Source: a virus. Taken from it: a stretch of 26,469 nucleotides of DNA. Numbering within the stretch: the first letter of the stretch is position 1; each line of letters opens with the position of its first letter. Positions 879 through 17,404 of the stretch are shown here, one piece after another. The notes under the pieces were generated by a model. The model did no database searches and had not been told where the DNA came from. It saw nothing but the letters and a program-made list of their open reading frames with translations. A program made the translations under genes and the position numbers. The stretch spans positions 1 to 26,469 of the IMG/VR virus record IMGVR_UViG_3300031898_000013; one strand, 5' to 3'.

Positions 879-901
879 TTTCTCTCCTTTCTTTGTTCAC
901 G

Positions 902-960
902 CCCCAGTCCACTGGGGTTTTCCGCTGGCTTCACACCGGCACAGCCCCTTTGCGGGGGCT
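902..960 (-). other. two GC-rich hairpins in the leftward spacer
   Basis: The 104-base spacer between two leftward genes holds two short perfect stems: CCCCAGT/ACTGGGG (902-908 with 911-917) and AGCCCC/GGGGCT (943-948 with 955-960). Neither is followed by a T-run on either strand, so they are poor intrinsic terminators. They could act as mRNA processing or stability structures in the leader of the 77-residue protein gene. Confidence 0.4.
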
Positions 961-1240: not shown

Positions 1241-1478
1241 TTTTCCCTCTCGCGGTGCGATCGATTAAGTGCTACCTTTATTGCAAGCAAGTTGCGTGCC
1301 AAGTCCGTAAGTGATTGATTTCATTGCATATGGGTAGTTTGGGTAATAACCAAAAATGGTGATTTTCAGCGTATCAAAATCGACACAGATTGAGATAAAT
1401 GCTTGATATGATTGCAATAAGTGCATGTGGTGATTTTCAGCATATGGTGGTGATTTTCACCACCTTCTTAAAAAAGAC
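1241..1478. promoter_or_regulatory. divergent control region with operator-like repeats
   Basis: This stretch separates the leftward cluster from the rightward promoter and has no credible ORF. The 12-base box TGGTGATTTTCA occurs three times in the same orientation at 1357-1368, 1428-1439 and 1448-1459. The last copy is embedded in a perfect palindrome, GGTGGTGATTTTCACCACC (1446-1464), whose right end is 14 bases from the -35 hexamer of the promoter at 1479. The second and third copies form an imperfect tandem repeat that starts GCATGTGG/GCATATGG. This arrangement is typical of repressor operators controlling an early phage promoter. No repressor gene is recognised in the window, and a clear leftward promoter was not found. 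Confidence 0.6.
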
Positions 1479-1507
1479 TTGACAAGGGGATTATAGGGGA
1501 TTATAGT
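1479..1507 (+). promoter_or_regulatory. consensus sigma-70 promoter
   Basis: TTGACA at 1479-1484, a 17-base spacer, then TATAGT at 1502-1507. The -35 matches consensus fully and the -10 at five of six positions. The spacer and -10 contain a small direct repeat (GGGGATTATA). Transcription would start near 1514 and run right into the hairpin-rich region. The operator-like palindrome just upstream suggests repressor control. Confidence 0.75.
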
Positions 1508-1559
1508 TTTAATGAGGATGTAATTTTATTTGGCACGCAGTATATATGGAGGCAACAGG

Positions 1560-1925
1560 TTGAACGGTAGGAACGGACAACTTAGGCTTGCCAAAACACA
1601 GAGCCCTAAGCTTACAACGCTTGGGGCTTCTTCTTTTCTCAGTATTCCCGCAGGAGGCGTCCTCGGCCAAGGTCAGGCCGATTTGGGTCAGGGAATTAAA
1701 AAGGCTGCTCTCGATACGGCGGACGAACAGTCTGCCGCTGCGGATTCGGTAAATGCATCCGCCCGAAAGCCTCCTATCTATTACAAACCTGTGGCTTCAC
1801 CCTATGGAGATCCGCCGCTCCTAGGGGCAATCCTCCCTCCTTCGTCTCACTTAGCAAGTCGGCCCTTTGTGGTCTTAACCTCCTTCTGCCATATTGGGCC
1901 GGCGGGTGTTGGGGCTTCGATATAG
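1560..1925 (+). CDS. doubtful ORF in a possible structured RNA
   Basis: An open frame starting at a TTG with GGAGG eight bases upstream (1548-1552), giving 121 residues; a longer form would use a TTG at 1530. The middle (KKAALDTADEQSAAADSVNA) looks protein-like, with many G-first codons. The C-terminal third does not, and no family is recognised. Several hairpins lie inside the frame, including one with a T-rich tail at 1602-1640, and the frame closes within the stem of the terminator at 1911. It could be a small unknown protein, or a fortuitous frame in a non-coding transcript made from the promoter at 1479. Confidence 0.3.
   Translation: MNGRNGQLRLAKTQSPKLTTLGASSFLSIPAGGVLGQGQADLGQGIKKAALDTADEQSAAADSVNASARKPPIYYKPVASPYGDPPLLGAILPPSSHLASRPFVVLTSFCHIGPAGVGASI
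1602..1640 (+). terminator. possible terminator or attenuator hairpin
   Basis: A ten-pair stem (1602-1611 with 1619-1628, one G-U pair) and seven-base loop are followed by a T-rich tail interrupted by C (TTCTTCTTTTCTC). It lies about 90 bases after the predicted transcript start. It may stop part of the transcription early, giving a short leader RNA, or be an internal stem of a longer RNA. Confidence 0.45.
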
Positions 1926-1952
1926 GGCAGACATCGAAGCCCCTTCCTTTTT
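1911..1952 (+). terminator. intrinsic terminator closing the control-region transcript
   Basis: An eleven-pair perfect stem, GGGGCTTCGAT (1911-1921) with ATCGAAGCCCC (1933-1943), followed by TTCCTTTTT. It shares TTGGGGCTTC with the hairpin at 1621-1630. It probably defines the 3-prime end of a transcript of roughly 430 bases from the promoter at 1479. Confidence 0.75.
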
Positions 1953-1983
1953 GGGGGTAATAACGGCGTAAAATAGTACTTAA

Positions 1984-2065
1984 AATTCAGCCCTTATCCT
2001 AAACCGAGGGGCAAGCACACAACTATAAGTGATGCAATCGCAGTTGTGAGTCTTGCCCCTTTTTT
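1984..2065 (+). terminator. terminator element, copy A
   Basis: Stem GGGGCAAG (2008-2015) with CTTGCCCC (2052-2059), inner stem CACAACT/AGTTGTG (2018-2024 with 2042-2048), then six T. A second element at 15104-15167 has the same conserved upstream flank (CCCTTATC, then TAA, then GAGGGGC) and the same GCCCCTTTTTTG end. As a terminator it insulates the nuclease and small terminase genes from the control region. Confidence 0.8.
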
Positions 2066-2098
2066 GTAGTTTTAACAGGGAAAATTTCAAGAAAAAAG

Positions 2099-2374
2099 AT
2101 GAAAAAATATAAGGGTTTTGGTGAACGAACAAAAGTATATGAAAATCAGGCAGAAGAAGCATTTCGAAGAACTATCATCCGTCAAGGATGGAAAGTAAGT
2201 AGAAGGGGATGGCCTGACTTTGTCTGTTATAAAAACGAAGAATTCATTCTGGTTGAAGTTAAGAAAACACAGAATCACCATCTTAAAAAAGCCCAAAGTC
2301 TTTTGAGTGGTTTTTTATCTCAGCATGGAATCAAAACTTGGATTTGGAGTCCTGATATAGGTTTTTGGAAGTAA
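2099..2374 (+). CDS. small VRR-NUC-like nuclease
   Basis: A 91-residue protein with the layout of a minimal VRR-NUC domain of the PD-(D/E)xK nuclease superfamily. It has an N-terminal helix with E20, a GWPD motif (D40), the ILVEVKK strand (E53, K55) and a following helix with Q66. Such stand-alone domains are frequent in phages and are thought to cut branched or specific DNA during replication or packaging. The ATG has only a weak purine-rich ribosome site. The gene follows terminator copy A and overlaps the upstream region of the small terminase gene, which fits a packaging-linked role, but that is inference. Confidence 0.75.
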   Translation: MKKYKGFGERTKVYENQAEEAFRRTIIRQGWKVSRRGWPDFVCYKNEEFILVEVKKTQNHHLKKAQSLLSGFLSQHGIKTWIWSPDIGFWK

Positions 2375-2391
2375 GGAGAGATAAAGAGAGG

Positions 2392-3075
2392 ATGGAGGGT
2401 AATAATAAGAGACAAGGAAAAAGAGAAATTATGGCAGGAAGAAGCAAAAGAGACGCAGGAAATGGCAAAGAGAGAAGACAACCGAAAAAGGGTCCTTTGG
2501 GTGGAATCCAACCGAAGCATCATGCAAGGAAGGATCGGACAACGAGTTTACTGCGCAGAGCCAGGATTCTTGAGGCGGCAGTTAAGGGTAAGAGTTTGAC
2601 ACAAGTGGCAATAGAAACTGGGTTGTCTCCTCGGTCAGCGGCTCAACAAGCCCATCAAATCTTGCATCATCCTTCAGTTCAGAGCGCTTTTGCGATGCTG
2701 CTTGCCCAACGAGGCTTGACGGACGAATTTCTGGCAGACAAGATAAAAAGCCTCCTTGATGCCCGTCAAACCCTTTACTTTCAACGGGATGGCGTGGTTA
2801 CAGATCAGCGGGAGATCCAAGCAATAGAGACTCAGCGGAAAACCGCCGAGCTGGCGGCTAAGCTCAAGGGCCACCTTCGCGAACAGCCAGAGGTCAATGT
2901 CGAAGTAGGTCTGATGGCGGTTGTGATTCAGGCGATGCACTCTCCGGGCGGGGAGTTATACAAGGGAAACCCACAAGATATTGTGGATTGTGGACAAGTA
3001 GACGAAAAAGAGCTATTTAGGGACAAGATCGAAATTCCCACAAAGCCGCTTCCAGTAAGGACTGGCAGGCGATAA
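2392..3075 (+). CDS. terS: probable terminase small subunit
   Basis: A 227-residue basic protein. The first 50 residues are a Lys/Arg/Gly-rich arm. Residues about 58-95 (ARILEAAVKGKSLTQVAIET...) form a helix-turn-helix, and residues 105-162 form a helical region (GLTDEFLADKIKSLLDA, then TAELAAKLKG). This order matches terminase small subunits that recognise the packaging site. The frame reaches back to a TTG at 2365, but the ATG at 2392 with AAGGAGAG/GAGAGG upstream is more likely; an ATG at 2431 is a further alternative. The large subunit lies about 6.6 kb downstream rather than next door. An unrelated HTH regulator cannot be excluded. Confidence 0.65.
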   Translation: MEGNNKRQGKREIMAGRSKRDAGNGKERRQPKKGPLGGIQPKHHARKDRTTSLLRRARILEAAVKGKSLTQVAIETGLSPRSAAQQAHQILHHPSVQSAFAMLLAQRGLTDEFLADKIKSLLDARQTLYFQRDGVVTDQREIQAIETQRKTAELAAKLKGHLREQPEVNVEVGLMAVVIQAMHSPGGELYKGNPQDIVDCGQVDEKELFRDKIEIPTKPLPVRTGRR

Positions 3076-3130
3076 GAGTCAAAAGTTTACATAATGTCCC
3101 TTATGCGAACATGGCCATGCCCAGCAGGAG

Positions 3131-3364
3131 ATGGATCGAGCGGCAAAACCAGGGGCCAGTGAAAAGATGAAGCCAGGCTTCCACCCAAAGACCAGAGGGG
3201 AGAGGCGGAAGGCGGAGCGAGCACACCGCAGGCGGAGGCGCGAGCGATGGACCAGGCCCGCGAAGGCCATGGAGGGGGGGGTGCGAGGGTCAAATGGGTC
3301 TAATTCAAAATTTGACTTATCCCCTCCCCCGCGAGACTATACTTTTGAACTCCGAGACACTTGA
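3131..3364 (+). CDS. doubtful Arg-rich small ORF
   Basis: A 77-codon frame in the 218-base spacer after the small terminase, with a run of basic residues (RRKAERAHRRRRRERW). AGGAG directly abuts the ATG, which is too close for normal use, and the frame overlaps the next gene by 71 bases. The GC- and purine-rich DNA could produce an open frame by chance. If real it would be a nucleic-acid-binding peptide. No family recognised. Confidence 0.2.
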   Translation: MDRAAKPGASEKMKPGFHPKTRGERRKAERAHRRRRRERWTRPAKAMEGGVRGSNGSNSKFDLSPPPRDYTFELRDT

Positions 3365-4661: not shown

Positions 4662-5192
4662 ATGTGGCAAAAGGGCATATTGAGAAATGGCTTACTGGCA
4701 AATTGGAGCACAACCTCGCAGACAATTTCTGCTGCGACGAGAACCTATATAGCCGGATCAGCCATTAATGTCCCTCTGACAAGACTGAAAATCGGAACCA
4801 CTTTCCGTTGGAAATTCAATATTAGGAAAACTGCCGCAGGAACAGCAGCCAGCACCTTTGACATTGCTTTTGGGACGACAGGTACGACCACGGACACCGC
4901 CAGGGTCTCCTTCACCAAGCCAGCGGGAACGGCAGCGGCGGACGAAGGTTTTATAGAGATCATGGCAATTTGCCGGGGGCCTCTTTCTGCGTCTGGGATC
5001 GTCGTGGGCGAGTTCTCATTGATCCATAATCTGGCCTCGACTGGCCACGCCACGATTCCCTGTGTGGTTGTCAACACAGTCTCCTCGGCCTTCGATGTGA
5101 CCACGCCGACTTATGTGGGCATATGTATTACTTCTGGTGCCTCGGATGCGATCACGATTGAGCAGGTAACAGCCGAGGTTTGGAACATCTGA
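4662..5192 (+). CDS. probable virion structural protein
   Basis: A 176-residue protein rich in Thr, Ala, Ser and Ile in strand-like patterns, starting MWQKGILRNGLLANWSTTSQ and ending TIEQVTAEVWNI. AAGGAGA lies before the ATG, 15 bases after the stop of the preceding gene. The composition fits a tail or appendage beta-sandwich protein that could be incorporated with the fibres encoded just downstream. No specific family recognised. Confidence 0.6.
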   Translation: MWQKGILRNGLLANWSTTSQTISAATRTYIAGSAINVPLTRLKIGTTFRWKFNIRKTAAGTAASTFDIAFGTTGTTTDTARVSFTKPAGTAAADEGFIEIMAICRGPLSASGIVVGEFSLIHNLASTGHATIPCVVVNTVSSAFDVTTPTYVGICITSGASDAITIEQVTAEVWNI

Positions 5193-5228
5193 GCGGAACG
5201 AGGTGGCGGCAGAAATGGAAGCTTCTGC

Positions 5229-5339
5229 GGGACAAAGGACTCCATTTTGTGTAAACTAAATGAGCGATATGCTATTTTGTGTAATGCGAAGGTATGTTAT
5301 GGTTTACACAAACTAAAAGGACTATTTGATAAATGTCCG
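5229..5339. repeat. IS256-end-like inverted repeat (possible MITE) or operator spacer
   Basis: In the 177-base gap before the fibre genes, TTTGTGTAAAC (5246-5256) has an exact inverted copy GTTTACACAAA (5302-5312), and a third partial copy TTTGTGTAA lies at 5276-5284. Outer GGACA (5230-5234) and TGTCC (5334-5338) also pair. Motifs like TTTGTGTAAA occur at the ends of IS256-family insertion sequences, so this may be a short non-autonomous remnant. Equally it may be a regulator-binding array upstream of the fibre operon; a weak promoter (TTTACA at 5303, then TTTGAT at 5325) overlaps the right copy. Confidence 0.45.
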
Positions 5340-5369
5340 CGAAGATCATAATGCGCGAAGGAATGAAAC

Positions 5370-6287
5370 ATGCAACCTGATTACAAGGTTGTTCGCAGTT
5401 TCTTTATCCGAAACTCCGACAAGATGATGATCATTCCTCCTTGGGAGGAAATCGGCATTATTGGGGGTGAACCCCTCTTTATGCTCGATGGCTCTTCTTA
5501 TATCGTTCCTGTGTCTTCCCATCCGGTTTGTCCGAAAACCCATCAAGTCGAAGAACTCGGACAAAGCGGTAGGGAATGGGGAAAGGCATGGCTCAAAGAC
5601 CTGCATGTTTCTGGCACTGCTCAATTCCCAAACTCAGGCCTTGGCATTTTAGATACCGATGCTTCTCATCGACTTATCCTTAGTCCTGCCTCGAATTTAA
5701 GTGCTCAAAGAACCCTTAGCCTCATTACCGGCGACGCTGACCGCTCCATCACTTTGCAGGGCAATCCTACGCTCAATGATTGGTTCGATCAATCCGTTAA
5801 GCAGGTAGCATCTCCTACCTTCGCTGGAATGACTCTCACCGGATTCTCTGGCTTTGTCAAAGCTACAGCAGGGGTCCTGAGCGCAGCGGCATTAACGGAC
5901 GCTGATATCCCTGACGATATTACTCTGACCAACATCACCCAAATCACGAATAGGTCACATACTAACTTGAGTGATATTGGTAGTCTGTCGCATGCTACAA
6001 TAGATGGTTACCTCGATCAGGCGGTGAAACAGGCCAGCTCTCCAACCTTTGCTGGGTTAACACTCACTGGATTTTCAGGGTATGTGAAGGCTACAGCTGG
6101 CATTCTTTCCGCGGATGTTTTACGCTTTGCTGGCCTTTTCGAAATTGATATCAATGAGAATTTTATGCCCCGCACAACTGTCGAATCTGATTTGTTTTTC
6201 GAATTGGATATAAACGAAAATATTATACCCTCGCCATATTATTTCGAAGTGGATGCGAATTCGAATATTATGCCTTCCTTGACATAG
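5370..6287 (+). CDS. tail fibre protein with internal repeats
   Basis: A 305-residue fibre-like protein. Residues 69-82 (EWGKAWLKDLHVSG) form a motif shared with the next gene (residues 25-37 there). A 34-residue unit occurs at 139-172 and 215-248, each containing SPTFAG, LTGFSG and VKATAG. The C-terminus has three short repeats, FEIDINENFMP (257-267), FELDINENIIP (277-287) and FEVDANSNIMP (292-302). Repeats of this kind are typical of trimeric shaft segments. GAAGGA precedes the ATG. It likely helps the phage bind the host. A chaperone or baseplate adaptor is less likely. Confidence 0.75.
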   Translation: MQPDYKVVRSFFIRNSDKMMIIPPWEEIGIIGGEPLFMLDGSSYIVPVSSHPVCPKTHQVEELGQSGREWGKAWLKDLHVSGTAQFPNSGLGILDTDASHRLILSPASNLSAQRTLSLITGDADRSITLQGNPTLNDWFDQSVKQVASPTFAGMTLTGFSGFVKATAGVLSAAALTDADIPDDITLTNITQITNRSHTNLSDIGSLSHATIDGYLDQAVKQASSPTFAGLTLTGFSGYVKATAGILSADVLRFAGLFEIDINENFMPRTTVESDLFFELDINENIIPSPYYFEVDANSNIMPSLT

Positions 6288-15103: not shown

Positions 15104-15167
15104 AATCCAACCCTTATCGTAACAAGAGGGGCGACCGCTGGATTATCCCAGCAATCGCCCCTTTTTT
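15104..15167 (+). terminator. terminator element, copy B
   Basis: Stem GGGGCGA (15128-15134) with TCGCCCC (15155-15161), inner stem GCTGG/CCAGC (15137-15141 with 15148-15152), then six T. The 29-base upstream flank matches copy A (1984-2012) at 23 positions, and both end in GCAATCGC ... GCCCCTTTTTTG. It separates the small-gene set from the scaffold and coat genes. Confidence 0.8.
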
Positions 15168-17337: not shown

Positions 17338-17350
17338 CACTTTCGAGGGA

Positions 17351-17380
17351 GGGATGATCAAGGTCTTGCTTGATCATCCC
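17351..17380 (+). terminator. hairpin after the coat gene
   Basis: A twelve-pair perfect stem, GGGATGATCAAG (17351-17362) with CTTGATCATCCC (17369-17380), followed by TTACCTT rather than a clean T-run. It is probably a leaky terminator or an mRNA 3-prime stabiliser that tunes coat expression relative to the genes after it. Confidence 0.6.
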
Positions 17381-17404
17381 TTACCTTGAGAAAGGAGATG
17401 AGAA

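Follow-up and report, generated by a model that had tools for sequence, protein, structure and literature searches.

A possible attenuated leader ahead of the packaging genes of a P22-like phage

What is encoded in the gap that separates the divergent leftward and rightward gene groups of a P22-like phage? The question arises from a 26,469-base virus record, which was analysed over its whole length (the window) and which belongs to a P22-like phage, as its portal is of the P22 type (Pfam E 1e-172) and it also encodes a terminase large subunit and a major head protein. The rightward group runs from 2099 through a VRR-NUC-like gene and the small terminase gene to the structural genes (Table 1). 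The match of the VRR-NUC-like gene to its Pfam family (E 0.00037) is below the curated cut-off, and its single-sequence predicted model is a complete alpha/beta structure (pLDDT 56, pTM 0.45). On the leftward side of the divergent promoter region, the 44-codon ORF at 1106-1240 (VEKTLREQRDDLVKAEREAEEK...) has a purine-rich stretch before its GTG and is probably a small gene. The stretch studied here occupies the gap between the two groups, and the original prediction interpreted it as a possible structured non-coding RNA.

Table 1 Features in and around the gap between the leftward and rightward genes, with positions in the window.
Feature	Position	Strand	Description	Basis
Small leftward gene	17-682	minus		
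Small leftward gene	645-878	minus		
Small leftward gene	1106-1240	minus		
Operator-like repeat, copy 1	1357-1374	+	TGGTGATTTTCAGCGTAT	
Operator-like repeat, copy 2	1428-1445	+		
Operator-like repeat, copy 3	1448-1465	+	Near-palindrome TGGTGATTTTCACCA	
Sigma-70-like promoter	1479-1507	+	TTGACA-17-TATAGT	Consensus scan
Tandem repeat	1485-1506	+	Perfect 10-bp repeat, 2.2 copies of AGGGGATTAT, filling the -35/-10 spacer	
Shine-Dalgarno sequence	1548-1552	+	GGAGG, 7 nt 5' of TTG 1560	
ORF, translation uncertain	1560-1925	+	121 codons, TTG 1560 to TAG 1925, no known family	
T-tailed hairpin 1	1601-1630	+	-18.5 kcal/mol, tail TTCTTTTCT, within the ORF	
Hairpin with loop GAACA	1717-1737	+	8 pairs	Predicted fold
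Terminator 2	1911-1952	+	11-pair hairpin 1911-1943, -18.3 kcal/mol, tail TTCCTTTTT	
Terminator 3	2008-2065	+	52-nt hairpin 2008-2059, -26.3 kcal/mol, tail TTTTTT	
VRR-NUC-like gene	2099-2374	+	First gene after the leader	Pfam VRR_NUC; homologue in L014
Small terminase subunit gene (terS)	2431-3075	+		Family matches; homologue in L014

The borders of a predicted transcription unit can be seen in this gap. The promoter at 1479, the T-tailed hairpin within the ORF and the eleven-pair terminator, all named in the original prediction, were found again here, and several further elements had been overlooked, namely the tandem repeat in the promoter spacer, the operator-like repeats upstream, the GGAGG and the terminator at 2008-2059. 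No other sigma-70-like site in the 26-kb window, whichever the strand, matches 11 or more of the 12 bases (shuffles gave 0.08 per strand). From the position of this promoter we infer a transcription start near 1514. The operator-like repeat is present in three copies in the window, against 0.04 expected. Between the promoter and the VRR-NUC-like and small terminase genes, three T-tailed hairpins of -18 kcal/mol or lower are found within 560 nt of the promoter, and among 600 shuffles none had three such hairpins and 3 had two. These hairpins rank among the four strongest plus-strand terminator candidates in the window. The fourth candidate (15128-15161, -23.2 kcal/mol, TTTTTT) falls within what is presumably the structural operon and stands immediately 5' of the gene that comes before that for the major head protein. 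Jointly, the strong promoter, the ribosome-binding site and the three terminator-like hairpins are far from chance, and a discrete transcript of ~440 nt, predicted to run from promoter to terminator, is well supported at the DNA level. On the plus strand, no sigma-70-like site with at least 9 of 12 matches was found in 1510-3360, and a single 8/12 site was found in 1901-2440. Since no consensus promoter follows the hairpins, the packaging genes would be reachable only by read-through, if the host uses ordinary promoters.

We tentatively read this arrangement as an attenuated leader of the type known from lambda pR' and AlpA, which would be opened by antitermination and would head the packaging and structural genes, and we put the probability of this reading at about 0.45. 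RNA polymerase would start at ~1514 from the strong promoter flanked by repressor-type operators, and by default it would stop at the T-tailed hairpins at ~1630, 1950 and 2065. The main product would then be an RNA of ~440 nt, on which a small ORF may also be translated. With a loaded antiterminator, for which the spacer tandem repeat is the candidate site, transcription would read through into the VRR-NUC-like gene, the small terminase gene and the genes beyond. This mechanism is drawn from the anatomy of the locus, in which the promoter, the repeats, the ribosome-binding site, the ORF and the ordered hairpins are sequence-level features, and we infer from it that termination and read-through occur, that an antiterminator exists and that the downstream genes depend on the promoter at 1479.

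Several features favour the attenuated leader. First, the sole strong promoter in 26 kb is followed by three T-tailed hairpins and by no consensus promoter. Second, the spacer of the promoter is occupied by a tandem repeat, just where lambda Q and AlpA have their binding elements, between -35 and -10 (PMC7969949). The repeat can be regarded as a candidate antiterminator-loading element, of a sequence unlike the known elements; that of AlpA, for example, is GGGACGN5GGTA (PMC7969949), as against AGGGGATTAT in the window. Third, two related contigs carry comparable signals before the same genes. In L015, a 15-bp repeat in 3.7 copies is followed by TTGACA-17-TAGGAT and a leader of ~500 nt before terS, and in L014, the operator 12-mer TGGTGATTTTCA is present beside a TTGACA upstream of VRR/terS, with ~300 nt from this TTGACA to VRR.

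In phage lambda, the pR' leader is terminated at tR' and the RNA is ~194 nt long. The window appears to share with lambda pR' the promoter, the short terminated leader and the late genes, as well as a candidate binding element that overlaps the promoter, but its RNA would be ~440 nt long with further hairpins. The antiterminator Q of lambda and its binding element have been described (PMC7171158); no protein of the Q families PF06530 and PF03589 was found in the window or in seven related records, which are fragments, and in the PF06323 profile search the control was silent. In Pseudomonas aeruginosa, one intrinsic terminator precedes alpB and two precede PA0807 behind AlpA promoters (PMC7969949). 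The order of promoter, spacer element, putative intrinsic terminators and operon in the window resembles these AlpA-controlled loci, but the stretch in the window carries in addition an ORF with a ribosome-binding site. A terminated short form and a read-through form, here by proposal only, would also be shared with IsrK of the Gifsy-1 prophage, for which read-through and a trans-acting short form were demonstrated experimentally (PMC4825925).

Homologues were searched using the ORF peptide, the DNA, the neighbouring genes (terS, VRR and terL) and exact motifs as queries. These recovered relatives of the phage and none of the segment itself, for which no homologue was found when viral contigs, phages, plasmids, E. 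coli genomes and related phage records were searched. The relatives with 70-76% identical terminase were all metagenomic viral contigs, the best deposited phages reached ~31% terminase identity, and the bacterial genome collection yielded none. The leaders of L015 and L014 showed no resemblance to that of the window and no comparable terminators, and in L016 and L018, read by eye, the promoter apparently stands directly before terS without a leader. The arrangement of promoter and terminators is therefore not conserved. The ORF in the L015 leader is not meaningfully similar to that of the window, and an Rfam search of the related loci at gathering and permissive thresholds returned nothing. 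Part of the L015 leader (360-865) was considered by eye as an RNase P RNA and was dropped (nothing in cmscan, fold z -1.7). As the leaders differ between relatives, the leader is variable, which fits either a fast-changing switch region or an inserted accessory unit. A separate observation concerns the leftward genes of L014, where at five places in 4909-6176 a similar GC-rich hairpin (for example GGGGGCC-GAAA-GGGCCCC, read leftward) is found directly 5' of AAGGAG as a repeated hairpin-plus-Shine-Dalgarno element; a similar GC hairpin is located 5' of AAAGGAG at 880-960 (minus) of the window.

The lack of conservation of the arrangement counts against the attenuated leader, as does the fact that no antiterminator was found, and a host-specific, non-consensus promoter after 2065 is possible. 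The ribosome-binding site and the ORF also count against it, since they could mean a plain gene. In that case, the segment would be an autonomous accessory gene (moron) that had been inserted between the packaging operon and the leftward genes and has a promoter, ribosome-binding site, 121-codon protein and terminator of its own. The genes of the packaging operon would be transcribed from another promoter, unseen by the consensus scan, and the terminators would insulate them. We consider this reading somewhat unlikely, although the complete unit from promoter to terminator is present. The ORF may be translated, because GGAGG precedes its TTG at a distance of 7 nt, and of 5000 shuffles, 3 contained such a GGAGG and start together with an ORF of 110 codons or more. 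The p value for the stop-free run by itself is 0.0175, and when codon use was compared with the phage genes, the first half of the ORF fitted (p 0.018). However, the second half gave no signal (p 0.35), and the signal is weak across the entire ORF. The family searches were negative, in agreement with the original prediction, and no homologue of the ORF was found. The single-sequence model of the product is nearly all coil (pLDDT 54, pTM 0.12, compared with pTM 0.45 for the VRR control). In addition, the ORF starts with TTG, contains a T-tailed hairpin and ends with a stop codon within the hairpin of terminator 2. On these sequence features, translation of the ORF is plausible.

The idea of a structured RNA survives as a non-coding RNA of ~440 nt that would stand on its own, act in trans in a regulatory or structural role and contain the ORF only incidentally. 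We regard this as improbable. The discrete promoter-to-terminator unit, the part of the original claim that holds, agrees with it, as do the fold z of -2.7 with the terminator included and the weak codon signal; the claim of structure does not hold. The predicted fold contains all the stems that had been named (1602-1628, 1717-1737 and 1740-1762), but a succession of stable stems is not above chance, as hairpins are as dense in shuffled sequences. In 1509-1910, 4 local hairpins of -11 kcal/mol or lower were counted, compared with a shuffle mean of 3.3, and 45 of 100 shuffles reached 4. When the terminator was left out, z was -1.8, a value reached by 17% of the 105 plus-strand 404-nt tiles of the window (7% reach -2.7). 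The structured-RNA reading is thus unsupported, since the stems exceed neither composition-matched chance nor the coding sequence of the phage itself, and the ribosome-binding site also speaks against it. The Rfam covariance search, which had been proposed as a check, found no family in the window at gathering scores, GOLLD and ROOL included, and at E<=10 it gave only three sub-threshold matches to other families in 1000-2400. GOLLD RNAs are in many cases longer than 800 nt, and GOLLD and ROOL often lie near tRNAs (PMC12286853). The window RNA would resemble them as a long phage-encoded transcript, but it would be ~440 nt long, and the 26.5 kb window has no tRNA, no Rfam match and no excess of structure in this RNA. 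Overall, the stretch has the appearance of a common type of phage switch, possibly with a small protein inside, and not of a novel ornate RNA. There is only a slim chance that the ~440-nt RNA represents an undescribed, fast-evolving class of phage leader RNA that acts itself, as a cis antitermination signal or in trans on transcripts of the host or the phage, with an incidental ORF.

Two other hairpins were noted. The hairpin with loop GAACA (GGCGGAC-GAACA-GTCTGCC) recurs as an exact copy of 19 nt at 4262-4288 of L039. There it has a T tail, is terminator-like and lies upstream of the HNH and terminase genes, with an HTH-type late-regulator-like gene on its other side. The similarity stops after 22 nt, and the copy is probably a coincidence, since ~0.3-0.4 chance matches are expected by a rough estimate of the collection size. 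In the window, the strongest local structure on the plus strand (tile z -7.0; z -5.2) is a 22-pair hairpin without a T tail at 17341-17391, just 3' of the major head protein gene and just 5' of the Shine-Dalgarno sequence of the next gene. This hairpin perhaps stabilises the mRNA or tunes translation.

The segment might also lack any function of its own, its ORF being decayed or fortuitous and flanked by a promoter and by terminators that insulate transcription. This would fit the lack of conservation in relatives with 70-76% identical terminase, but it is very unlikely given that the promoter, ribosome-binding site and three hairpins are so far from chance. We favour the attenuated leader, followed by the autonomous small gene, the trans-acting RNA and the functionless region in this order.

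A promoter-to-terminator stretch with visible hairpins is, by itself, no evidence for a structured RNA. If the attenuated leader is the correct reading, the leader would be the place where expression of the packaging and structural genes is switched on in an uncultured group of P22-like phages, for which no close relative was found among deposited phage records, and a candidate site for its antiterminator is named here.
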